The translations under genes were made by a program, and so were the position numbers. A DNA stretch of 64,000 nt, taken from Deltaproteobacteria bacterium. Its GTDB lineage: Bacteria > Desulfobacterota > DSM-4660 > Desulfatiglandales > HGW-15. Below the pieces are notes generated by a model. It was given only the letters and a program-made list of their open reading frames with translations. It was not told the DNA's origin and ran no database searches. Of the stretch, positions 8,750 through 23,435 are shown piece after piece (the first letter of the stretch is position 1; each line of letters opens with the position of its first letter). The stretch spans positions 18,703-82,702 of the forward strand of contig JAFGFM010000092.1 in assembly GCA_016931115.1 (NCBI GenBank), in the 5' to 3' direction.

Positions 8750-10804
8750 TTATTCAACTCCCAATGCCTTAAATACCGCGTCTTTTGGGTCTGCATAAAA
8801 GCTTGTTTGAAATTTAGCGAAGAGCTCACCCGGTATACTTGGTATGCCTCCCACACTTGCCATTGGGAGTAATATCCTTTTTGCCCCAGAGTCAAAAGCC
8901 ACCTGAAGTGTTTCAGCCAGGTTTTGAACCGGTACAATGTTACCCCCCAGGCTCATACTCCCAAGCACTGCTATTTGAGATTGAACTGATTTAGCCATTA
9001 ATGAGGAACAAAGAGCTACAAAGGCAGCGAGGGTCATTGCATTTGTCGGCCCGGTATTGTGGAGTTCAACAACATGAAGATGGTAATTATGATCTCCTGT
9101 TTTTGCTGATGCACTTATACCTGATGCGTTTGCCTTAAAATAATCAAACCCCACCTTAACCGCTTCCTTTGCAGAGCTTACACTGCCGAAACCTGATAAT
9201 GTCAATGACCCATTGCCCGGTGTTATCTGAGTTTCCAGCCTGTATAAACCTAGATGGTTGCTATTCCCTGTTGCCACTGTATGTAATACTCCGGGGTTTA
9301 ATGGCCCTGCCGGAATTAGCGAACTGCCTCCCTGTTCAGGCACGCTGATGAATTTCTCTTCCATATTCTCCTGGTCAATGTAAGAGAAATGCACATCATA
9401 AAATTCCATACCACCTATTTTTTTAAGCTGTTCTTTAACCCGCCGTCGTGTCTCCAGCGCATATTCGAGGCAGCGCCTGACAGCATCCTTATCATAATCT
9501 TCACCTGGATAAAGCAGTTTTAAAAGCCCTGAGACCGTGTGTTTTACTGCGATTGTATCCCTTTGGTTCAGATCCCGTCCCAGCTTGAAATATCTGTTTA
9601 TAGCATCAGCAAAATTTCTCTTACGCATCTCCCTCAGATATTCTGCGAGGTAATCTACTATAAGCCCATATTGATTGGTGAAAAATTCAGGTCTCATTTT
9701 AGGGATTTCCCAGCCTGGGATATAGGCATGAAACCTGTCAAAAAAAGCTGAATCAATCATTGCTTCAGGGAAAGGCGCTAACAGGTGACTTGTTTTTACC
9801 AGCGTGTCCACAGGCTGATTAAGGTTACCGACAAATACCATTGAGGCATAGGCATTTACCATTTCACGGCCACGGGCAAAGGAGCCTGAAGCCATGTAAT
9901 CCTTCATTATCTGTACACCATCATTTTCTTTAAATGAAATGCCGGCCACTTCATCAAAAGCAACAACATCCCAGAGACCTACAAGCCCTACAGTCCGGTT
10001 ACTCAGGTTATAAAAAAGATTTGCTACAGTTGTTTTTCCTCCTGAAATCAGGATGCTGTTTGGACTTATCTCCTTATATATATGACTCTTACCTGTGCCA
10101 CGCGGCCCAAGTTCGCAGACGTTAAAATTATTTTCCACAAGAGGAATAAGGCGCGTAAGAAGATGCCACTTTACCCGCTCTGAAAACTGGGTAGGCTCAA
10201 GCCCTGATGAACGTAAAAGTACATCCAGCCACTGAGATTCATTAAAATTTTTCCTTCCTTCAAAGAGTTCATTCATATCCATATTTGGCATCTTGATCGG
10301 CTTCAGGTCCCTTATTAAAAATGGAGATCCTTTCTGTCCTTCCTCATAGAAGTATTCCATTGTGATAATAGACCATATCCCACCAGCCAGGAGTTTTTCA
10401 TACTGCCTTACAACATTCGTGGCTATCTCTACACCCTTTGTGCCAAGGTTTGAAAGCAGTGCCTCATATACATCTCTTTTCTCATTCAGTTTTACAGTAG
10501 CCTTATCAATAATTTTAAGAGTCCCGCGTTCCCTGATGATGGATTTTACCTTTTCAGCTTCATCAGGTCGCACATAGTTCTCTGCAAGTATCCGTTTAAC
10601 AGTTTTTAAACCATCCTGGATTATTGATTCATCATTCGATGCACAGTGTTGCCCTAGAAGGTATTCAAGAACGTATACCGGCACATTTGCGCCTTCCTTA
10701 ACAAGCTTTGTCAGGTCTTTTCTTACTACTCTACCTGCAAAATATTTGTTAAGAAGATCATCCAGGCTGCTGTCCATTACCATTGTTTCATTATTGGAAG
10801 TCAT
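8750..10804 (-). CDS. brxL: BrxL, BREX Lon-like AAA+ protein
   Basis: N-terminal ...YVLEYLLGQHC, central GPRGTGKSHIYKE, C-terminal Lon protease-like domain (GPTNAMTLAAFVALCSSLM...GSMSLGGNIVPVQNLAETLQVA). Confidence 0.92.
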   Translation of the reverse strand: MTSNNETMVMDSSLDDLLNKYFAGRVVRKDLTKLVKEGANVPVYVLEYLLGQHCASNDESIIQDGLKTVKRILAENYVRPDEAEKVKSIIRERGTLKIIDKATVKLNEKRDVYEALLSNLGTKGVEIATNVVRQYEKLLAGGIWSIITMEYFYEEGQKGSPFLIRDLKPIKMPNMDMNELFEGRKNFNESQWLDVLLRSSGLEPTQFSERVKWHLLTRLIPLVENNFNVCELGPRGTGKSHIYKEISPNSILISGGKTTVANLFYNLSNRTVGLVGLWDVVAFDEVAGISFKENDGVQIMKDYMASGSFARGREMVNAYASMVFVGNLNQPVDTLVKTSHLLAPFPEAMIDSAFFDRFHAYIPGWEIPKMRPEFFTNQYGLIVDYLAEYLREMRKRNFADAINRYFKLGRDLNQRDTIAVKHTVSGLLKLLYPGEDYDKDAVRRCLEYALETRRRVKEQLKKIGGMEFYDVHFSYIDQENMEEKFISVPEQGGSSLIPAGPLNPGVLHTVATGNSNHLGLYRLETQITPGNGSLTLSGFGSVSSAKEAVKVGFDYFKANASGISASAKTGDHNYHLHVVELHNTGPTNAMTLAAFVALCSSLMAKSVQSQIAVLGSMSLGGNIVPVQNLAETLQVAFDSGAKRILLPMASVGGIPSIPGELFAKFQTSFYADPKDAVFKALGVE

Positions 10805-13430
10805 CGTTAAATGCCCTGTCTATTATGATGTTTCTACTCTCCTGCTCAATGCCTGTCTCGGCATCTCTCAGGATAAGACGATACTGCCTGTTTTTATCAT
10901 ACTTTCGGTTCTGCAGAACAAGCATTACTGTCTTTTTACGATCATCTATCTTATCTGACACGCTTTCAAACTTTACTGATTCGATATTTGTGACCGGCTC
11001 CTCAGCGTCATAGATCGCGATTTTTAAGGTAACCGGTTTTACCCTGTCGCTTACCGACTCCATCTGAATAATGTCAAATTTGTGTCTTGATGTTGTAATC
11101 TTATGGATTGTGCCAAGGACATGAACTGTTACAGGCTTTACCTTTGTTTTATCAACTGATTTATCCTTAATATGCCGAACAGTTATAACTGGGACAACAA
11201 CTTCCTGGGGCATTGCTCCCCCATGAATAAACCTTGCCCCTCCAACAAAATGGAAGCGGTTTAACCCCTTTGGTATCCAGAACTCCATTCCACCTTCAGC
11301 GCCTGCGGTTATAGCTGTTGATCCATGCCATACCGTGTCATTATCTCCAAGTTCATAACCAACAAGGTAACGTTTTTTGGCATTGATAACCCTCAAAGGC
11401 TTCTCAATAATAGTTGTTTTTTCAGGTTCACCGGGGTCTGTTTCAGTATATAAAAAGCCGTGGTCAGAAGTTATGATAACATGGTTTCCATTCAGGTTAT
11501 TGATAACATGTGAGACAAGCCCTGCCAGTTCATTTATTGTCTGTCTAACAGCACTGAATGTCTTTCCTTCGCTTGTAGCCTTATCCCCTGTTTCATCAAT
11601 AACATTATGATAAATATATATGATTCTTTTATCTTTTATAAGCTCCCGCCCCTCTTCCTTTTTCATCTCAATAAGTTCAGAAGCCCTTACAGCTATTCCA
11701 TCCACTGAAGCAAGTATCTGGTTTCGCTGTTCAAACCAAGCACATGCCTTTTCATCAACAAAAATCTCCCCATTTTCTTTATACTTCAGTTTTGTATGTG
11801 GCAATAAGGCAGCCATTCCCAGGGCGGTGTAAGAAGGGAGAACCCCGAGCATTGAACTTATTTCTGCTTCAAATCGATATTTCCCATTCAATTCGATTTT
11901 AAGTTCATCCGCCGCCTCATACCGAAGGGCATCACTTATAATGACAAAGCTTCGCCTTCTTTCCGCCTCAGCCAGTCTGGATTCCACATGTTTATTGAAG
12001 AACTCTGTTTGATTAATGACACCATTGACCTTCCATGTTGATAAAAGTCTATGGCTGCCTTTCGGATCAACCATCTTTCCCCAAGCCGCGGCAAGACCCT
12101 GAAGAAACCAGTTTACATAGCAGGCATCCATATATTCCTTCAGATTTTTAAGCACATCCCAGCTCAAGGTTTCAATCACATCTGTCTGTTCACAGAACTG
12201 CCTGTAGAGTTGATCAAACAGATACAGGTTATTTTCATAGGCCTTATATCCATCCTCTGTAGTCTCAAAATCAATCCCATTTGAATATTGCCTTTTAAGT
12301 GCTAAAAATTCCGCGGTCTTTAAAATTGCCTCATACACGGAGTAAAAGCCTTTTCTTGGTGTGTAAACAGATGAAGGGATATTACATGATGCCCAGTGTC
12401 CGGCCTGTCTATGTCTCACGATTGACTTTATGTCTTCTATCTTTATGAGATCAGGATCTAATATGACCCTGTCTCTTAATGACTTGGCAATATGCTTTTC
12501 CAACACCTGGAATGTCATAACATCCATCAGGTCTTCCAACTCTCTCTCATAGACCTGATCTTCAAGCCTAAAAAAATCTGCCACTATGCCGGACAGGCAG
12601 TCATAACTTATTCCTTTTGTAGTGCTATCCCTCCACTGTGCAAGGCAGACAACTGCATTATTCCTTCCTGCCTGCGGTAAAACCAGGTGACTCAATGAAA
12701 CTGGGATAATGCCCCTGCAATGTTGCGCAAAGTCTGTCACCATCAAACGTATCAGAAAATTTTTCAGGCATGGAGTTTCTTCAGAATACCCGAACATGGT
12801 TTTGGCCATCTGCCAGAACGCTTTATCCAGATCGAATTTTTCGACATTTGTCCAGGTTTCCGGAGGTGTATCAAGATCAACCTCAGCGGAATTATTTACC
12901 TCGGTGTATGAATGGAATATGGTGCGTATGATATTAAACCATTCATCATGTTCAGCCTTTGCCACCACTGAGATCATTTTGCGATCAAGATCAATATCGT
13001 CATCATCAGGGGATGTAATCTGTATGAGTTTCTGTAGCCTGTGTTTATTATCAAAAAATTTTCTGCGTGATGCTATATGGTCTCTCAGATGTTGTTTGGT
13101 GAGTTTTAGCTGGTCAAGTATAATAGACGCCCTGTCCGCCCTGAAACTCCGGCTGTAAAGCCTGATATCCAGAAGCCAGTCATCTTCAAAATCCGGTTCT
13201 TCAGCGGTAGAATAAATAATATACCTGCCGACAGAGTCTTCATGCTCAAGCAGTACCTTTGTTTTGAAAGAACCCTCCTGGTCGACCTTGATTACCCTAA
13301 CACCTTCAGGAAGTTCAAGAAGAGAGAGTATTATAGCAAACTCATTGTCAGGGTCATTCCAGAAGACAATGCGATGGCCTTCTTCATCAAAGATTCGAGC
13401 CAGGGCTTTTTCTATTTGTGTATTATCCAT
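10791..13430 (-). CDS. pglZ: PglZ, BREX alkaline phosphatase-like protein
   Basis: RIVFWNDPDNEF N-terminus; VIISDALRYEAADEL; VIITSDHGFLYTE; adjacency to brxL and pglX. Confidence 0.93.
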   Translation of the reverse strand: MDNTQIEKALARIFDEEGHRIVFWNDPDNEFAIILSLLELPEGVRVIKVDQEGSFKTKVLLEHEDSVGRYIIYSTAEEPDFEDDWLLDIRLYSRSFRADRASIILDQLKLTKQHLRDHIASRRKFFDNKHRLQKLIQITSPDDDDIDLDRKMISVVAKAEHDEWFNIIRTIFHSYTEVNNSAEVDLDTPPETWTNVEKFDLDKAFWQMAKTMFGYSEETPCLKNFLIRLMVTDFAQHCRGIIPVSLSHLVLPQAGRNNAVVCLAQWRDSTTKGISYDCLSGIVADFFRLEDQVYERELEDLMDVMTFQVLEKHIAKSLRDRVILDPDLIKIEDIKSIVRHRQAGHWASCNIPSSVYTPRKGFYSVYEAILKTAEFLALKRQYSNGIDFETTEDGYKAYENNLYLFDQLYRQFCEQTDVIETLSWDVLKNLKEYMDACYVNWFLQGLAAAWGKMVDPKGSHRLLSTWKVNGVINQTEFFNKHVESRLAEAERRRSFVIISDALRYEAADELKIELNGKYRFEAEISSMLGVLPSYTALGMAALLPHTKLKYKENGEIFVDEKACAWFEQRNQILASVDGIAVRASELIEMKKEEGRELIKDKRIIYIYHNVIDETGDKATSEGKTFSAVRQTINELAGLVSHVINNLNGNHVIITSDHGFLYTETDPGEPEKTTIIEKPLRVINAKKRYLVGYELGDNDTVWHGSTAITAGAEGGMEFWIPKGLNRFHFVGGARFIHGGAMPQEVVVPVITVRHIKDKSVDKTKVKPVTVHVLGTIHKITTSRHKFDIIQMESVSDRVKPVTLKIAIYDAEEPVTNIESVKFESVSDKIDDRKKTVMLVLQNRKYDKNRQYRLILRDAETGIEQESRNIIIDRAFNDDFQ

Positions 13431-13446
13431 TTTAAATACCGCTTTT

Positions 13447-13475
13447 AACCACGAATTACACGAAACACACGAATG
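13447..13475 (+). repeat. AACCACGAATTACACGAAACACACGAATG short interspersed repeat between pglX and pglZ
   Basis: Direct reading; related copy in pglX at 17281-17316. Confidence 0.65.
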
Positions 13476-14333
13476 TTAAATAAAAACAAAACATATTTTT
13501 TCTCTTTTAATTCATGAATTACTCATCAGTTTTTCCTGTTACAGCCTTTACCTCTGCAAGCAGGTCACCGAATTTTGCGTAATTGACCTTAACCCCATCA
13601 TCCAGATCAAGGCTTATCCTCATGTCTGCAAAATGATGCAACTTTTCATCAAAGGCCTGAAGTTCCACCCTCTGTTTTACAAGCTTCTGCTTTTCCTTTT
13701 CCAGCTTTCGTTTGAAGGCGGTAGAAGAGGCCGCTTCAATATCGCCTTCCAGTTGATCTATCCGGGCATTGATTTTACCCTGTAAAGGGATGACATACTC
13801 TGTCCGTATCCTGGCGAGTGTACTCTCATTATACCTGTGCAGATAGACAAGACATTGAAATGCCCGCTCTTTACCACTTGTAAAAAGCCAGTATATAGGC
13901 CGCTTTTTGTACATAGTCAGGTGATGTTTATAAAATCCCGTGCTCATATGCCGCCTTAAAGTCTCCCTGGCAGTTTCATCCTGCTTTGGTTCAAGTGCGT
14001 CTGCAATAAAGCGTAAGTTTTCTTCCAGGTACGCCTTTGGCCATGCAATACTAATAAATTCTATGAACCGGTTAACCGCGTCATCATTAAACCAGTCAAT
14101 GTCAGTTATAGGTATAATGCCATCTTCATCAGGAAAGAATCTTGGTTCGGACGAATTATTCCGGTGTTTTTCCTGATAGATCTTATCAAAATCCACATTA
14201 CCACTATTAGCATAGATAAGCCCAGGCGCATCCATAGAATACCTACCCATTATACATCCGACTGTGTATGATATCAGCTCCTTCATGGTGTCTGCCAGCA
14301 GCCTGGCCTCCAGATCATCGTCCACTGGAAACT

Positions 14334-14367
14334 CTCTGGTCCCTGGCCCCTGGTCCCTAGCCCCTGA
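14334..14367 (-). repeat. Short CAGGG-type repeat in frame within pglX
   Basis: Coding-strand TCAGGGGCTAGGGACCAGGGGCCAGGGACCAGAG encodes SGARDQGPGTRE; same motif family as the IVP cassette ends. Confidence 0.65.
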
Positions 14368-16352
14368 AGAAAGCACCACTTTCTTTCCGTAGCGATAATA
14401 TGGATTACACGTAAGGGTTATTTCATTAAGCCGCACCTCGGGCGTTAGTTCATCCTGTAGATTATAGGCTACGATAAAGACGCGGTTATTCTCTTCCTCT
14501 AGTCTCTTCATTTCCAGCGTAACCTCCCGCCAATGCATATGGAGCATCTGGTAAGAGGCTACTAGAGTTGACTGAGGGCAATCGGATTTAATCAATGGAT
14601 GATAGGAAAAGCCCCAAGAAGTCTCGTATGAATCCCAAACTTTATGTGTAATGTTTTCGGCCTTAGAAGCTAATGAAATTATTTTTTCTTCAGAACACCA
14701 TAATAGAGGCATATTACTAACATTTCCTGGATTGTTTGCAACGGTTGGATTAATTACAAGCATCAAATAATGAACCAATTTACTATTCATGAATCCTAAC
14801 AAGTATTTTAGCTTCGAATCATCAGATTCTGGTATTGTAGGGCCATTAACATTTAGTACACTACCACATGGAAGATAACGTACATTGAACGTTGTCATGT
14901 TTAACAAAGTCCACGTTATTCCTGGTTTAAAAAAGTATTCATAATTGAATACTCGTCTACTCCATGATTTTGTATTTGGATCTCTTGGATTGTTAACAAC
15001 CCAATGCTTGATCTCAACACCATCATTTTCCCAATTTATAACTTGGTTACAATGACCAAACCACCGATCTCCAATACCACCCTTATTGTATGGGAACCAT
15101 TTTTTACTGGATGTTTTCGCATCTAGACTCGAACTGCACCCAGGTTCAAACTTATCAAGCGAAGGTTCATACCACTGACGTAAAAATCTTGCATCATCGC
15201 CTGTTGTCATTCCAGTTTTTGGAGAAAATTGTTTGCCAAGAGTGCCACTATTTTTAAATAAATTAAGAATACTCATACCAAGCCAATATGCAATTGGATA
15301 TCCAGGAATATTCAAATATTCACTTTGCTTGAAAGTGAAATGGCCATGTTTGCGATCTAAGAATAATTTTTCAATCAAGTCTGGGGACCTAACTTCAACC
15401 AGTTTTTCGAATAATCGGCGATATACAGCTATTGAACTATCTCTTGGTGTATTGTTTAGAAATACAAATGCAACCGTTCCAAAATCTGACCCAAAAATTC
15501 CTCGTCCAAGATGGATTAAAGAAGAGAAAGATTGTGATTTTATTAGTTTAAGGCGAAGCTTCTCAAATGAAGATAAAAACATCCAAGAAGGAAGGTTAAT
15601 CATCCCCCAAAAACCACCAGAAGTCGTCAGTTCTGTGGCTCTTTCCATAAAGCATGCTAATAGATCAGCTTTGCTATCTGAATAATTTATTTTCAACCAA
15701 GCTCCTAGATTAGCATTCATACCACCACTCCCCATATAGGGTGGATTAGTAATTACTACATGGTATTTGGGGCAAAGATAATCAGACTGTTTAAGTACTT
15801 TAATTACCTTATTATGGGTTTTTGAAAGGAAAAGATCTCCAGCAATACCCTTTACCTTAAGGCGGGTCGCAATACCTTCGATATCCTTCAGGGCTGGTTG
15901 TATTAAGGAGCCAAAATTATCTGCCTCTTCAAACTGGCGCAATGTCGTCTGGAACTGGGTTGTAAAAAGGTCTCTGCCAACCTTGTCCATATATGTTTCT
16001 ATCTCATCTTCTGAGAATTTTACATTTTCTAACACACATATATTTGGTTCGATGGGTTTAAAATCTGAATTTCTTCTCTGAATAAAACGCCTGTCTCTTT
16101 CACGCGCTTTCATGATAAGGGAGAAGGCAGCCAGTTCTCCGGCACGTTCGTCTATTTCAATACCATAGAGATTATTTTCAAAAATCTTCTGCGGAATTTC
16201 ATTGGCTTTATAACCCATTTCTTCATAAATGGAATACAAAAGATCAAAGGCATAGACTAGCATGTGGCCGCTTCCGCAGGCGGGATCACAAATTTTGATA
16301 TCCTCGGGTCTTTTGATGCGGAGGAAGTCCTCTTCGCTTGTAGTTGCGGAGG

Positions 16353-16775
16353 AGTTAGGGGTTAGGGGACAGGGGTTAGTCTTGATCTGAGAGCTCCCAG
16401 CATTTTGGAGATTTCTTTGAGTAGGGAGAGCATTTCCTGCGTTTGTTTCAGAGCAATATATTGCAGCCGCTGGGCGATTAGAATTTGCGTTTCCACTTCT
16501 GCCTTGGAGCCCTGTGCTATCGATAGAAAGTTCCTGAACTCCGCTGTCGAGTTGCGAGCGTGTCCCTCCGCTATATTGGATGGAATTGACACTGCCGCCC
16601 TGCGAATTTGATTGGTCAAACCGTAAAGCTCCTCCTTGGGAAACTTCTTGGTTGCTTGATATACAATCTCCACGAGATCCATTGCTTTCTGCCAAACGAT
16701 CAGATCCTGATAACTCTTCACTTCCATTATTGCCTCCGATTGTTTTACTAACCCCTGATTCCTGATCCCTGAAGT
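16353..16775 (-). mobile_element. Putative IVP-type insertion cassette inside pglX
   Basis: Interrupts an otherwise continuous PglX; perfect 11-bp inverted repeat CAGGGGTTAGT (16370-16380) / ACTAACCCCTG (16747-16757) within longer imperfect CAGGG-rich arms. Confidence 0.75.
16362..16727 (-). CDS. Four-helix bundle protein (23S rRNA intervening-sequence protein / Avd-like family)
   Basis: MEVKSYQDLIVWQKAMDLVEIVYQATKKFPKEELYGLTNQIRRAAVSIPSNIAEGHARNSTAEFRNFLSIAQGSKAEVETQILIAQRL; own SD in ATCGGAGGCAATAATG. Confidence 0.93.
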   Translation of the reverse strand: MEVKSYQDLIVWQKAMDLVEIVYQATKKFPKEELYGLTNQIRRAAVSIPSNIAEGHARNSTAEFRNFLSIAQGSKAEVETQILIAQRLQYIALKQTQEMLSLLKEISKMLGALRSRLTPVP

Positions 16776-17280
16776 ATCTGGTCGAATATAATACTCCATA
16801 CGGTCAATCAATCGGGAATTCGGCCGATTGAGCATCCAGAGCCGTCCCAAAGAATTCTCAACCAGATACTTCACTATCCAGTGTGGTGTAAAAAGCTGAG
16901 TGGCGGCAGGGATATTTTCAGGAGTTATTTTCATATTATTCTTCAGTCCCTCAAAAACTGCATCCTTCTTCTCTGAAATATAAAACTGGTATAACCAGCC
17001 TATTATCTCAACCTCCTGCCAGTCATCTTCAGGGATCTCACTCACAAGCCTTCTTATCATGGAGTCGGAATGTAGGAGATTATCTGGCAGTAAAAGCTCT
17101 GTCTCATCATTTACCTTTTCAAACAAGAATGGCATGGCATCATTCAGGGCGTTGCACTGGGCTATAAGAAGCATTTTATACAGCTCTGCTTCCTTTGACC
17201 CCTCCATCTTTAATTCAATAACCTTTTCCCTGTCCAGCCCCGGTAGATCCACATGCTCCGCATGTTTTAAGATATCAGGA

Positions 17281-17316
17281 ATATTATTCGTATCATTCGT
17301 GTTATCTGTGGTTGAA
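17281..17316 (-). repeat. Short AACCACnnATnACACGAA-type repeat in frame within pglX
   Basis: Coding-strand CAACCACAGATAACACGAATGATACGAATAATAT encodes STTDNTNDTNNI; resembles 13447-13475. Confidence 0.65.
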
Positions 17317-17645
17317 AGGACTCTGTAGCCATGCTCCAGAAACCCATGAATCTCCATATACCGGATAGCCACAAACCGGTTAAACCAGGTATAAGCCATG
17401 GCCTCCATTACCTGATCAAAACCTTTATTCTTTATCCTCTCTTCAAGCTTTTTGCGTTTTGATGCAACACAAATGGGAAATGGCTTATCACCTATAATGG
17501 CAATATCGCCCTTTTCAATAACTGGAGTAATATTTTCTTTCGTAAGGCCGTAATATGCCGCTCGGTCTGTTATGGCCTGTATAAATTCACGACGTGCCCT
17601 GGGGGCATATGATTTGAGTTTATTTCTGTTCATATGCTATTTGGA

Positions 17646-18236
17646 TTATCCCATCAACTTTTTAACAAGTCTATAAACAGTTGAACCATTTGTCCTGGGC
17701 CAGTCTTCACATGGAGGAGTATCCTTGGCCTCTGCTCGATCGATTGCATCCTGTATGCCCGGTTGAATTTTATGCACTTCCAGATGCCCCTTTTCAAATT
17801 GCGGCAGATGCCGTTTAAGCCGTTGTGTGCAATCCTTTGACCCGGATACCCCCTTTCCATCTTCAAAATGGAGTAAGAGCCAATATTCAAACTGGGGATT
17901 ACTTACTGAAAGGTTATAGTGCGACACTCCGCAACCGAGGAATACTTCTTCCAATTGTTCTTCATCCCACTGATCCCGATCTATAACCAGCCATACCTCA
18001 TCCTCTTTTTTAAGCCCTTTTTCATCTACGAATTTCTTTGCTCTTCTAAGGGTATGCAGAGGAGAACTTTTATGTTTTATGGCCGGAAGCAGTTTTATGT
18101 GTATTGTGGTTTGAAGACTATTGAATATTCCAAAATATATAGGCTCTGTTCTTGCTCCTTCCGTTGCAATAAGAAAAAGCTTGCGATAATGAAGAGCAGC
18201 TTTTGGTCGTTTGAAAATCCGCTTTCTACCTGGCAT
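17646..18236 (-). CDS. RloB-like protein (AbiLii-like, Toprim-type fold expected)
   Basis: KLFLIATEGARTEPIYFGIF...VWLVIDRDQWDEEQLEEVF...NPQFEYWLLLHFEDG motifs; directly downstream of an AAA15 ATPase. Confidence 0.85.
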   Translation of the reverse strand: MPGRKRIFKRPKAALHYRKLFLIATEGARTEPIYFGIFNSLQTTIHIKLLPAIKHKSSPLHTLRRAKKFVDEKGLKKEDEVWLVIDRDQWDEEQLEEVFLGCGVSHYNLSVSNPQFEYWLLLHFEDGKGVSGSKDCTQRLKRHLPQFEKGHLEVHKIQPGIQDAIDRAEAKDTPPCEDWPRTNGSTVYRLVKKLMG

Positions 18237-19579
18237 CAGTTATTGCCTCTTTCCATATCAGTGTCTTCTGATCTTAATGCGCCGGAAATGAGTATTCGCG
18301 GAATTCCACCAAGCTTACCCTGAAGATAGCTTTTTCGAATATCTTTGTCATAACGTACATCTTTATAATCACTAAAGGCCAATAAAGAGGAACGCCCCTC
18401 ATTGTCCCGCTCTGTTACCCACATTTCATCTCTACGAAATAGCCGCTGATCCATCAAAAAAACATCATGGGTGGTCAACAATAATTGAGACCGGGTTTCA
18501 GGTGCACATGATTCCAGATATCCATTCAGTAATTCTCTGGTTAAAAGGGTATGCAGGCTCCGATCAATCTCATCAATGACAAATACTTTTTCGTTGCTAG
18601 ACGGGGCAAGTTCCAGAAAAGCCGGAATCAAATCAATGACACGTTGTGTTCCATCTGACTCCTGCTTCATATCAAAACGTATCTCATTTCCTGATGAATC
18701 ATTATGAAAGCTGACCAATTTTCGAGCTTCCAGTTCTCCATTTTTACGGACAATAGTAATTCGTTCACGTGTAGGTTCCACCAATAGGCGGACAGTAGCT
18801 CCTTCCGGGATTTCTTCTCGAAGTCTTGTCTTAAGATTTTCAGGTAAACCCAGATTATCAAATTCAACTTTTTCTCCACCAAGCCTCGAAATACCTGTGT
18901 CAAGATGACTTAGAGTCAGGTTCATATGGCCATATAATGGATTCTCCTCCTGAAAAAACCGTTCAAAAGGCTCAAAACGGCTATCCGGCGCTATCATAAC
19001 CAGACTATCTTTAAACCAGTCATAAATATGCTTAAATCTTTCAACCTTCTGGTTGACTGCATTAGTAAGAAATAACTGATTATCGCGGGTTCCCTGAAAT
19101 GCGAAATTAAGAAACTGGTCTTTTTTAAATTCAGTTGAAAATTTAATATCTCCTTCCTTGCGCCGATAAAGCTCTTTTTCAGATGTCTTTTGAATCTCTG
19201 TCAGCCACTCTTCAACTACACGATCACGGGTTACGCGGAAACCAAACTCATAGCAACAGTCATTAATATACAGCTCAAAGGATAAAAAAGTTGGTAATTT
19301 TAAACAGGAAGGGTTCAGCCTGAAGGGTTCTATAGGAATTATTGCCTCAGGTTGTGTGCCTTTGACCACAAATTGACGTGCAAAATTGAGCGCTTTAAAA
19401 AAATTTGTCTTACCTGATGCATTACCACCATAAATGGCAGCAATCGGTAATAATCGCATATTATATTTTGGGATGTGAGGCACTCGATCCAAGTGTTGTT
19501 TTTCACGGCTGGCAACCATAGAAAAAGTTACCTTAGACTGGAACGATAACCAGTTTTCTACAGAAAATGATATTAACAT
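18236..19579 (-). CDS. AAA15-family ATPase (RloA/AbiLi-like)
   Basis: [63 protein letters not shown]. Confidence 0.85.
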
Positions 19580-19716
19580 ATTAATTCTCCGATTTATTCT
19601 CTTGAAATATATTTTTATTAAATATTAGCATCCTAATGTCTGCATTTCAAGAGATAATGTCTCGCAAAGTAATAATTTACCATGGATTGCACGGATATTA
19701 TTAAAAAATCAAAGGC

Positions 19717-19797
19717 GTTAACCGTGAATTCATGAATACCAGGAATTTTTTTCTTGTCTTTAATATCCGGGTAATCATTGTGATTCGTGGTTCCTTC
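19717..19797. repeat. Imperfect inverted repeat of the AACCACGAAT family between brxC and the rloA-like gene
   Basis: TTAACCGTGAATTCATGAATACC on + versus AACCACGAATCACAATGATTACC on -, enclosing ~35 nt. Confidence 0.5.
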
Positions 19798-19799
19798 TT

Positions 19800-22700
19800 T
19801 TATCGGATTTGTATACGATCACCCGATTTAATAGCCTCTTCCAGTTTTTGCCTGAGTTCATTCAAAAATCTGTTTATATCTTCTATACTTTCCAGGTAGT
19901 TATCACCTACCAGCTCAACCGGTTTAACAACACGCCTGGGTTTAATCTTTTGAGGTTCAGATACACCCTGCTTTTTCTCAGCCGAATTATTTACAAATGC
20001 CTCAATCCTACCCATTGCATTGTCAAATGCCTTTTCAGCCTCCTGCTCCATCTGTGCCAGATGCGCTATGCTTTCTATCCTTTCAATACTATCTCTTAGA
20101 TTCTGTAACTGGGTTGTGGAATTGTAAATCAGGTTGCCATCTCCACTGACGCTTTGGACCTCTTTTTTGATTCTGTTTAAAAAGCCATCTATCCTGCTTA
20201 AAACCTCAGACTGTTTCTGTTTGACAAAGGCATTGTTTATTTCCTTTACAGCGCTTACCAGCCCGTCTGTCTCATGGATAATGCCATAGGGCGCTTTGGA
20301 GGACAGTATCTCCTGCATTCTTTTAAGAGCCGGCGCAGCCGTTTCATCCTGTTCCAGCTCAAAGCGGTTTATATCGAATTTGTTATATGCTAAACGCAGC
20401 TTGTCCCATGTGTGCATCTGGTTTTCATAAAACTGTTCCAGAGTATGAAAATTATCTGAAAGATCAAGCAGGTCATCCTTATTGGCATTAAACCTGTCTA
20501 TAAATTTATAGCTTTCATCAACAGATAACAGGGGCCTTATTATATTCAATGCCTCTGTTATCTCTTCTTTGCCAGGGTATTCCCCAGTGTCTGCCAGTGG
20601 CTTAAAACTGTTCAGAGATGTTTCCCATGTTTTAAGCTTGTTTTTTAAAAAGGCGCAAAGGGCGTCTTCATTATCAGGCCCCATTTCAGAGAATACATCC
20701 TTGCCTGTCTTCCTTGCCCTCTGAAGCGCCTCAGGGTCTGATGTTTTTCTTTTATGAATGGTGATCTTTTTCCACTTAGAGGATGCCTTGATCTGTTCAA
20801 AGACTTTATTGAGTGGAAGTATATCTGCATCCATTTTAAGGCTGATCTCTCCAACTGCAAGAAGCCTGCATATAAGGAGTATCACCTCCATCTCAGGCCA
20901 ACCATATGGCCGGACAGAATAACGCTTTTCAATCATGTCGCTGATTATGATTGAATGATTCTTTATGTTGCACAGGTCGACATAATTGCGAAGATCTTCA
21001 ATGGCCTTGGGGTTGTTCTGTTCAATTGTAAGGTCAAGACTCTGTTGGGCTATATCATTACTTTTTAGAACCGCCTGAATTTCCTTCTCCGGTTCACTGT
21101 GTACATATTCCAGGTAGCTCATCTTGGAAAATGTGTTTGTTATTAAATACTCAAATGCCTCTTCCAGGGTAGATATGGGGGCTGAAGCCTTGATATTGAC
21201 CTTCTGGCCAGCAATAAAATAGGAGGCATCAACCAGCATTTCAGCAAGAATCTTATTCAGGCGTTCCCTCCGCACGCGATTTTCCTCGGCATTATCCCTT
21301 CTTACTCTTTGTGCTGTAGTTGGAAGGTTGCTATCACTTTTGGTCCTGAGATATTTGTCGGTCCGGGCGTATGTGCGTAGTTCCCTATCAAAATTTTCGT
21401 CATCCCTTAGCCGGATAATTATCTGACCACCCTCATTACTACTGTCAAGAATACACTTTCGGTCAGAATATTTATCATAATCTTCATTAAGGGGAGAAAT
21501 TACTGAGACAACCAGTCCTCCTTCGGTCTTATTCCCTACAGGATACAGATCGCAGAGCCTTGTAAACCCAAAATCCATCTTGTTTTTGGTATATCTGTGT
21601 TTCCTCTGATCCTTGTATATATCACTGAATATCATATCCCCCAAAAGCCGACTCTCTTCGGCAGTGCTTAGATCAATGCCCTTAATCTCCCTGTTGATAT
21701 CCCTTTCTTCATTAGTGAGAAAGAAATATCTATCACCATTACGTTTTATAAGATTTATCGATTCAAGGCGCTGGAGAGATGCTTCTATATGTTGCTTTAA
21801 TGCGATACGATCAGCATCAATCTCCTCCAGACATAGAGTTACAAGATTATCTGTATTGCCTTTTATCTCTTCAACATGGCGAATAAGAAACAATACCTGT
21901 AATACCTTGATATCAAAGGGTTCAAGGTTAGGATTATCAGATGCCTGATTTATTGTCCTTTTTACTGATGTATCAAGAAAACTCTCAATAGATGGATAGA
22001 ACTCATAAAGAGGAACAAGTACACCGACATCTTTCAATGCCACATTCTGCACTGCGGACTGGAAGGCGTCCAGCATAGACCTTTCACCTTTGGCAAGATG
22101 TAATCCTGTTGCACCAGCGTTTCTGATCACCTCGAATATCTTCTGAAGAAGTGCGAACTGGTAAGGTACAAAGGGGTAATTCCAGGCAAAATCGTCCATA
22201 TCTGAATATGGCTTCAAGGTCATACGACAATCCATGAATGACAATTGATTACGGAGGATATCGCCTTTTTCTCTGAATATTCTTGAGAGCTCTTCTTTCA
22301 CGTCATCGTTTTTCTCAAGAATGCGCCTTCTAATAACCTCATCTGCATTTCTGCTGGAAAGTGAAAGGCGTGTTCTGAACCGGCCCTGTATCTTTGAAAA
22401 GTCATTTTTTGCTGATGTCCGAAGTTCACCAATAACTTTATTTATCTCTTCCTGGGAGGTGACAATAACCCATGCCCTGCCTTTACAAAGGGTTCCTAAG
22501 TCTTCAATAACTGTCTGAAGGTTTAGCATGAGGTGCCCATCGGTGCCAATGAACTGCCCTATTTCATCCACCAGGAAGACAAGACGGCTATTAGGCCCTC
22601 TTGAATCAAGATACTCCTTTATCCATTTTGCCAGGTTTTCTACAGTAAGCGAAAAATTGCCGGGTGCATTATCTATCCATTTTTCTGCTGACTCCCTGCT

Positions 22701-23435
22701 TTGCTCAAGGGTCTTTTGAAATGCCTCTATCACTTGATCCCTGTTGAACGCATAGGCGTCTCTTTCATCGAGCCATTCAGTCCCTGTGATTTCAAGATAG
22801 TTTTTATGGAACTCTTTCAGCTTATTTTTGCTCGCAAGATAACGCTCCATGTGGGCTATATGAGGATGATCTCCATCAAATCCCTGTATTTCATTGAGCA
22901 CTTTAAGGAATACCGAAAGGATTGCATCTCTTCCGGGCCTGCTGTCAGCCTTACTATCTATATTAAAGAGTATGACCTCTGCTTTTGATAAGCCCGCTCT
23001 TTTTATATCACCAAGAAGCATGGCATCTGATACCTTTTCATTTAAAAAATCGATAGCCTGTTTTTGTTGCCCTGAATGAGAAAGGGTTTTATTACCCAGT
23101 AAATATGAAAGCACCTTAATAAAATGGGACTTACCGGAGCCGAAGAAGCCTGAAATCCATACACCCATCTTTCCTGTTATGGCTGGATCATTGGGATTAT
23201 CCATTACATTAAGATAGGCAGTGAGAAAATCACGGAAATGCCTATCGAGTTCCTGCGTTAAGACAAACTCGTCAAGTTCCTGCCATACGGAGTTTTCATC
23301 CAACTGCTGGGCCTTGATAACACCATTTATTGACCGGAATATATCCTTCTTGAATAGGCTTTTTATCTGCATTTCAACCTCATTATGGAACGAGCTTAAA
23401 GGCTCTATAGTAGTTGTTGCTTTTTGTTTTTCCAA
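19800..23435 (-). CDS. brxC: BrxC, BREX P-loop ATPase (DUF6079-like)
   Basis: GVWISGFFGSGKSHFIKVLSYLLGN; LVFLVDEIGQFIG; 1211 aa; position between brxB and pglX. Confidence 0.93.
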   Translation of the reverse strand: MEKQKATTTIEPLSSFHNEVEMQIKSLFKKDIFRSINGVIKAQQLDENSVWQELDEFVLTQELDRHFRDFLTAYLNVMDNPNDPAITGKMGVWISGFFGSGKSHFIKVLSYLLGNKTLSHSGQQKQAIDFLNEKVSDAMLLGDIKRAGLSKAEVILFNIDSKADSRPGRDAILSVFLKVLNEIQGFDGDHPHIAHMERYLASKNKLKEFHKNYLEITGTEWLDERDAYAFNRDQVIEAFQKTLEQSRESAEKWIDNAPGNFSLTVENLAKWIKEYLDSRGPNSRLVFLVDEIGQFIGTDGHLMLNLQTVIEDLGTLCKGRAWVIVTSQEEINKVIGELRTSAKNDFSKIQGRFRTRLSLSSRNADEVIRRRILEKNDDVKEELSRIFREKGDILRNQLSFMDCRMTLKPYSDMDDFAWNYPFVPYQFALLQKIFEVIRNAGATGLHLAKGERSMLDAFQSAVQNVALKDVGVLVPLYEFYPSIESFLDTSVKRTINQASDNPNLEPFDIKVLQVLFLIRHVEEIKGNTDNLVTLCLEEIDADRIALKQHIEASLQRLESINLIKRNGDRYFFLTNEERDINREIKGIDLSTAEESRLLGDMIFSDIYKDQRKHRYTKNKMDFGFTRLCDLYPVGNKTEGGLVVSVISPLNEDYDKYSDRKCILDSSNEGGQIIIRLRDDENFDRELRTYARTDKYLRTKSDSNLPTTAQRVRRDNAEENRVRRERLNKILAEMLVDASYFIAGQKVNIKASAPISTLEEAFEYLITNTFSKMSYLEYVHSEPEKEIQAVLKSNDIAQQSLDLTIEQNNPKAIEDLRNYVDLCNIKNHSIIISDMIEKRYSVRPYGWPEMEVILLICRLLAVGEISLKMDADILPLNKVFEQIKASSKWKKITIHKRKTSDPEALQRARKTGKDVFSEMGPDNEDALCAFLKNKLKTWETSLNSFKPLADTGEYPGKEEITEALNIIRPLLSVDESYKFIDRFNANKDDLLDLSDNFHTLEQFYENQMHTWDKLRLAYNKFDINRFELEQDETAAPALKRMQEILSSKAPYGIIHETDGLVSAVKEINNAFVKQKQSEVLSRIDGFLNRIKKEVQSVSGDGNLIYNSTTQLQNLRDSIERIESIAHLAQMEQEAEKAFDNAMGRIEAFVNNSAEKKQGVSEPQKIKPRRVVKPVELVGDNYLESIEDINRFLNELRQKLEEAIKSGDRIQIR

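Follow-up and report, generated by a model that had tools for sequence, protein, structure and literature searches.

Intervening Sequences and Comparable Inserts

Intervening sequences (IVSs) of rRNA are removed by RNase III, which excises them without religation. Those of 23S rRNA in Leptospira and Coxiella carry an ORF for an S23/IVP protein, and to our knowledge the IVP/S23 proteins have remained without a known function since 1993. IVSs take the place of tetraloops in rRNA helices, and in the 23S IVS of Coxiella heptamers precede the ORF, the termini form a stem of 28 bp, and RNase III cuts at the first heptamer (PMC4990558). IVP genes have also been noted in rRNA inserts of CPR (PMC11270868) and in cas loci (PMC3936711, in the part accessible to us); the accessible part of the latter mentions no repeats, hairpin ends or in-gene insertion. 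Two kinds of repeats invite comparison. Rickettsia palindromic elements (RPEs) are palindromic inserts tolerated in frame in protein genes, about 150 bp long and grouped in families of shared sequence, for which the sections of PMC10969869 at hand describe no conserved protein gene in another frame. The G-rich heptamers of Xanthomonas and Nostoc (GGGAATC, GGGGA(T/C)T) are 7-nt near-tandem units, often arranged as convergent inverted pairs and studied there as one unit type per genome; no mention of an intervening sequence or of an S23/IVP gene was found in the accessible text (PMC4692102). In the open-access literature, which may miss published work, we found nothing on IVP genes with heptamer ends other than that of Coxiella, nor a paper that joins the Coxiella IVS, the IVP genes of cas loci and CPR, and the Xanthomonas heptamers.

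The element described here is located in pglX of a BREX operon, not in a 23S rRNA helix. With the 23S IVS it shares the protein family, a length of about 430 nt, complementary ends, an orientation sense to the host RNA and, as in Coxiella, heptamers beside the ORF. The element and its relatives differ from the IVS in their hosts, which are operon gaps and protein genes and not rRNA, in a repeat unit that is specific to each copy, and in the predicted ability of host translation to cross the insert in the +2 frame of the IVP. RPE-like continuity of the host frame is found, within the available sequence, in eight relatives, whereas the two halves of the gene in the window are out of register. 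The 7-nt units recall those of Xanthomonas and Nostoc, except that here the unit differs from locus to locus. As in the cas loci already described, IVP genes occur in defence operons, here likewise in cyanobacterial cas operons: in two cyanobacterial plasmids (L331, L332) they are placed between cas6 and cas4 (type I-D) or between cas10 and a Cmr3-family gene (type III-B), and repeats are present in their flanks. Avd of diversity-generating retroelements (DGRs) is a related four-helix bundle, matched by the IVP of the window below the cut-off (NF033474, E = 8e-10, 39 bits against 80); no DGR parts were identified at the locus, and no reverse transcriptase (RT) was present among the BREX-region proteins searched.

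An IVP Element Within pglX

The window, i.e., the whole stretch of 64,000 nt that was analysed, contains a BREX operon in the order brxC, two AAA/RloB-type genes, pglX, pglZ, brxL. The features of the operon and of the element are:

8750..10804, minus strand: brxL (BREX)
10791..13430, minus strand: pglZ (BREX)
13519..16695, minus strand: pglX, C-terminal part, 1058 aa from TTG; open upstream to about 16803
14333..14365, minus strand: heptamer array without IVP, in frame in pglX, coding SGARDQGPGTRE (GGGGCTA GGGACCA GGGGCCA GGGACCA)
16350..16380, minus strand: 3' arm in the mRNA, inverted heptamer-type array ACTAACCCCTGTCCCCTAACCCCTAACTCCT
16362..16727, minus strand: IVP ORF (23S_rRNA_IVP, "four helix bundle protein"), 121 aa; ATG at 16727, TAA at 16364-16362
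16362..17633, minus strand: pglX, N-terminal part, running in frame into the IVP ORF; 423 aa, PglX models
16370..16380, strand-neutral: perfect 11-bp inverted repeat, half one, CAGGGGTTAGT
16733..16737, minus strand: Shine-Dalgarno-like GGAGG, 5 nt ahead of the IVP ATG (from sequence)
16747..16757, strand-neutral: perfect 11-bp inverted repeat, half two, ACTAACCCCTG
16747..16771, minus strand: 5' arm in the mRNA, heptamer-type array CAGGGAT CAGGAAT CAGGGGT TAGT
17646..19579, minus strand: RloB-like and AAA/AbiLi-like genes, between brxC and pglX
19800..23435, minus strand: brxC (BREX)

The ORF inside pglX is a member of the 23S_rRNA_IVP family, above the curated cut-off over the full domain: it matches PF05635 over positions 1-105 of 106 (E = 4e-42, 143 bits, cut-off 33.8), TIGR02436 with 134 bits (cut-off 24) and PDB entry 2GSC with E = 6e-28. 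The upstream half of pglX runs into the element in frame with the IVP and ends at 16362, and the downstream half uses the +2 frame of the IVP, in which its first ~130 codons read the element. The insert is open across its length in both frames, and the two halves of the gene are one base out of register; the copy as assembled would yield an N-terminal PglX-IVP fusion, not full PglX. Since the frames do not join, this pglX may be a decaying gene, a switch state or an assembly slip in the repeat, three possibilities that one assembly cannot separate. An array without IVP also occurs between genes: the one at 2636-2666 (CCCTGCG CCTTGAG CCCTGTG CCCTGCG) occupies the gap that separates a short-chain dehydrogenase-like gene from its neighbour, and its unit resembles that of an IVP elsewhere in the same genome (L016).

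The original prediction was of a cassette whose ends are perfect 11-bp inverted repeats, with imperfect similarity extending into the flanks, and both parts of it hold. CAGGGGTTAGT (16370-16380) and ACTAACCCCTG (16747-16757) are exact reverse complements, and the longest pair reaches 24 nt at 79% identity (16357-16380 / 16747-16770), ends from which the element could form a closing stem of the 23S IVS kind; the heptamer-type units of the 3' arm are GGGGTTA GGGGACA GGGGTTA. The idea that these ends fold the mRNA came through in part: they pair in the predicted minimum-free-energy structure, but the fold as a whole is ordinary (z = -0.56). Rfam gave no match at 13000-20000 of the window. An 11-bp inverted match arises in 0.13% of draws of random 60-nt pairs from the window. 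Taken alone, the 11-bp pair is weak evidence, since the whole 64 kb contains five independent 11-bp inverted repeats at 300-450 nt spacing, and at 14 the stem score of this copy is weak, falling short of the 95th percentile for mismatched pairs; it is through comparison with the family that the pair gains significance.

Occupied and Empty Sites in pglX Homologues

In 59 of 64 PglX homologues the site without insert is an eight-residue linker, MEYYI-KPEQPETD-FLRI, and in the remaining five the linker is longer. Both the insert and its ends are absent from the empty-site genes, so that the ends do not belong to unrelated sequence of pglX, and the view of the element as an insertion bounded by complementary ends, in the manner of a 23S IVS, is borne out. 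A PglX from a Fibrobacter MAG (L201) has an IVP in the same linker, 68% identical to that of the window, and reads through the insert in the +2 frame; in L143, too, an intact IVP is read through by a long PglX frame. Three homologues have repeats in the linker and no IVP, namely a heptamer array in L141, a small hairpin-like pair in L095 and, in L106, a short array much like the window's own left end. A search for PglX with the insert on plasmids gave matches that start only downstream of the insert.

Complementary Ends Across the Family

The evidence throughout comes from comparing sequences. The family sample consists of 190 IVP ORFs, 161 of them with enough flank for end analysis; most of the genomes sampled are draft MAGs, and strong IVP hits were favoured in the sampling. 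Tandem arrays, mostly with a best lag of 7, are found upstream (5') at 108 and downstream (3') at 104 of the 161 loci, against 12 (5') and 4 (3') at control positions 700-900 bp away. The complementarity score is 24.5 when the two ends of one copy are compared and 11.2 when ends of different copies are (p=1e-80); between ends, inverted matches outnumber direct ones by 133 to 25. On finished plasmids of cyanobacteria, Riemerella and Azospirillum, IVP genes are bordered by these arrays as well, which are thus not an artefact of metagenome assembly.

In the window's own genome, for which genome-wide statements rest on searches and fetched stretches, the other IVP ORFs are flanked by near-tandem 7-8 nt units, inverted on the far side, with a different unit at each locus. 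These ORFs too carry complementary ends, and the objection that such ends might be missing elsewhere in the genome falls away. The suggestion that the ends serve as recognition sites for insertion fared worse: every copy has its own repeat unit, which makes a shared recognition sequence unlikely. As a candidate for a shared end motif, GGGGTTAGGGG was rejected; the genome has just 4 copies of it, one of them at the window locus. Relatives of the "HGGYR" type in the same genome (L014, L015, L017, L018) are without the repeats and were used as a control. With their HGGYRxLKSFQ... sequences, they are diverged four-helix relatives and a natural outgroup for function.

Five IVP sites are shared between species: lexA / Y-family polymerase gene (imuB-like), gmd / fcl, before livH, between pglZ and brxL, and before a wzz-like gene, the gene names coming from searches and sequence. 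At these sites, own ends scored above cross-species ends in 50 of 58 comparisons (25.0 vs 14.8). Between L016, from the window's genome, and L174, from the same genus, the neighbour gene is 92% identical while the IVP is only 58% identical, and the heptamer is different. The two arms change together, as would be expected from stem maintenance or from arm-to-arm copying; with each copy having its own repeat unit and the arms changing together, it would be pairing, and not sequence, that is kept. Chance or artefact as the whole explanation was rejected on the complementarity (p=1e-80), the 50/58 co-variation and the arrays of finished plasmids.

Orientation and Relationships of IVP Copies

For intergenic IVPs flanked by two genes of the same strand, the IVP is sense to them in 97 cases and antisense in 0. 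This orientation argues for dependence of the element on the host transcript, be it through an action of its RNA or through the lack of a promoter of its own, and it could just reflect a need of the IVP for the operon promoter. In the IVP tree, whose 108 columns limit support, in-gene copies cluster (5 changes vs 10.8 when shuffled, 0 of 500 shuffles). The rows nearest to the IVP of the window are the other pglX copies and L199, an IVP from the pglZ-brxL gap of another BREX operon; related IVPs have thus occupied three BREX positions. No IVP was found in phage records, and the Calothrix plasmids are uninformative as to a recent duplication of an IVP only, the IVP sitting within a larger shared stretch.

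Passage of Host Genes Through the Element

A host gene spans the IVP in 11 of the 190 copies, always in the +2 frame of the IVP and always as a restriction or defence gene. The hosts are PglX (L001, L198, L200, L201), type III methylases (L022, L238 and, by sequence, L259), DrmMI/type IIG-like methylases (L026, L286), a DUF1156/HmaB-type gene (L222) and a DrmD-like helicase (L285); the +2 linker itself served as the search profile that yielded several of the in-gene loci. The +2 frame is free of stops in 12 of 190 IVPs, where synonymous shuffles predict 1.07, and 11 of these 12 have a spanning host gene; intergenic copies mostly have five to ten stops in this frame. Within the available sequence, the host frame is continuous on both sides in 8 of 11 (L022, L026, L198, L200, L201, L238, L285, L286) and broken in L001, L222 and L259, and the IVP frame itself has a stop in 3 of the 11 (L201, L026, L259). 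In pairs of coding-host copies, third-position changes dominate the IVP frame (e.g., 9/7/44), and IVP identity is 59-90% against 21-56% for the linker peptide, from which it follows that the IVP is kept while the linker is just kept open. Weaker stems in coding hosts were not supported (n=6, p=0.33).

The PADLOC PglX model PDLC02522 is matched end to end by L201, whereas the matches of two type III methylases, L238 and L259, are confined to the linker derived from the IVP. The model appears to contain the +2-frame linker, at about positions 286-432, which would account for its matches to unrelated type III methylases. Further in-frame heptamer-derived linkers (VDSKTVESKTVES, TDHRPLTTDH, HSPLATRRSPSSRHSPLATG) are present elsewhere in the host genes of L198/L143, L238 and L026, methylase genes that seem to collect heptamer repeats.

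An Element Probably Acting in the Host Transcript

The best reading, to which we assign a probability of about two in three, is that of an IVS-like element with hairpin arms acting in the host transcript. The element would consist of one IVP gene between two hairpin arms of heptamer-type repeats, would be kin to the 23S IVS and would insert in sense orientation only into tolerant transcribed sequence: loops of rRNA helices, as known from the literature, operon gaps and flexible linkers of defence methylases, as in pglX. Pairing of the arms in the host transcript would set the IVP message apart as a stem-closed domain, within which the IVP would be translated from its own start (GGAGG-N5-ATG); in coding hosts, the host frame would cross the element in the +2 frame of the IVP as a stop-free, Ser/Gly/Asn-rich linker. 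To what can be read off the sequences, i.e., insertion, copy-specific complementary ends, co-variation, sense orientation and +2 passage, we add by inference that the stem probably forms in RNA in the cell, that selection would act on it and that the element may move; since we found no two strains that differ in the presence of the element, movement is deduced from site sharing and tree clustering only.

The stem may also be an RNase III site, at which the pglX mRNA would be cut and the IVP message freed as in 23S rRNA; the pairing of the ends in the predicted fold, the sense-only orientation and the Coxiella precedent of cleavage in heptamers (PMC4990558) are in keeping with it. We nevertheless hold such processing to be unlikely: within the available sequence, 8 of 11 coding hosts maintain an open host frame across the element, which is sensible only if uncut mRNA is translated, and the perfect stem of the window covers 11 bp, with interruptions farther out. 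Phase variation is well known among methylases, and heptamer number could act as a switch, with PglX expressed or silenced according to the frame set by slippage of one unit: adding or removing a 7-nt unit alters the register, and the window has pglX halves one base out of register around an insert open in both frames. Heptamer number does vary among Coxiella strains (PMC4990558), but most coding hosts observed are in register, a MAG cannot reveal switching and short-read assembly can collapse a repeat, which leaves the switch doubtful.

Two other explanations concern movement at the level of DNA or of an RNA copy. Inverted ends, scattered insertion and the clustering of related IVPs at different BREX positions are what terminal inverted repeats of a DNA transposon, served by a transposase in trans, would produce. 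A sequence-specific transposase would not tolerate ends that differ in each copy, however; the shared ends of a terminal-inverted-repeat transposon or MITE are lacking here, the units being copy-specific and mismatched copies failing to pair, and with sense-only orientation and no shared transposase identified, we consider a transposon very improbable. Movement by way of a cellular RT and an RNA copy, by analogy with Avd of DGRs, draws on the weak Avd/bAvd similarity, the sense-only orientation and the complementary ends. It is very hard to reconcile with the genomes compared, among which there is no genome-level association of IVP and RT genes: no RT was found in G026, G010 and G057, with 24, 17 and 11 IVP hits, and G027 and G033 have an RT and no IVP.

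Hairpins Without an IVP

How the arms came to flank the gene is a related question, for which the lexA/imuB site is informative. Among 30 relatives, this site holds an IVP in 10, heptamer arrays or strong hairpins without IVP in L386, L404, L394, L401, L385 and L388, and nothing in L391, L379 and L393. In L377, L378, L390 and L403 the gap contains strong hairpins of other, non-heptamer palindrome types, and the site would seem to gather hairpins in general. It is conceivable, at somewhat worse than even odds, that the hairpin came first: heptamer hairpins would arise and spread alone, IVP genes would settle in their loops, and the ends would belong to the target. The three states of the lexA/imuB site, the IVP-less arrays and hairpins in the same pglX linker (L141, L095 and L106, the last with a unit like the window's), the frequent convergent pairs among GGGAATC arrays of Xanthomonas (PMC4692102, accessible part) and the parallel with IVSs taking the place of 23S rRNA tetraloops all point this way. 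Hairpins without an IVP are, however, equally explicable as remnants after IVP loss, and the count of heptamer arrays in a small sample (10 in 400 kb of IVP-rich genomes vs 0 real ones in 400 kb of IVP-free genomes) suggests that arrays depend on the IVP.

Implications for the IVP Family

For IVP/S23 proteins, the comparison provides a testable common anatomy, made up of hairpin arms and sense-only placement, and ties these proteins to one class of dispersed heptamer repeats. Defence methylases carry a conserved gene within a linker in another frame, by which gene callers are misled, and the IVP-bearing linker is apparently already inside a curated PglX model. As a tentative generalization, to which we give rather less than an even chance, IVP genes may be bacteria-wide RNA-level passengers in transcribed hairpin loops of any kind, of which those in rRNA would be a single niche, with copy-specific arms kept for pairing and not for sequence, and with a defence-methylase lineage that is dual-coding for IVP and +2 linker. 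If arm pairing is selected, the long-standing question of what an IVS is becomes an experimental one.
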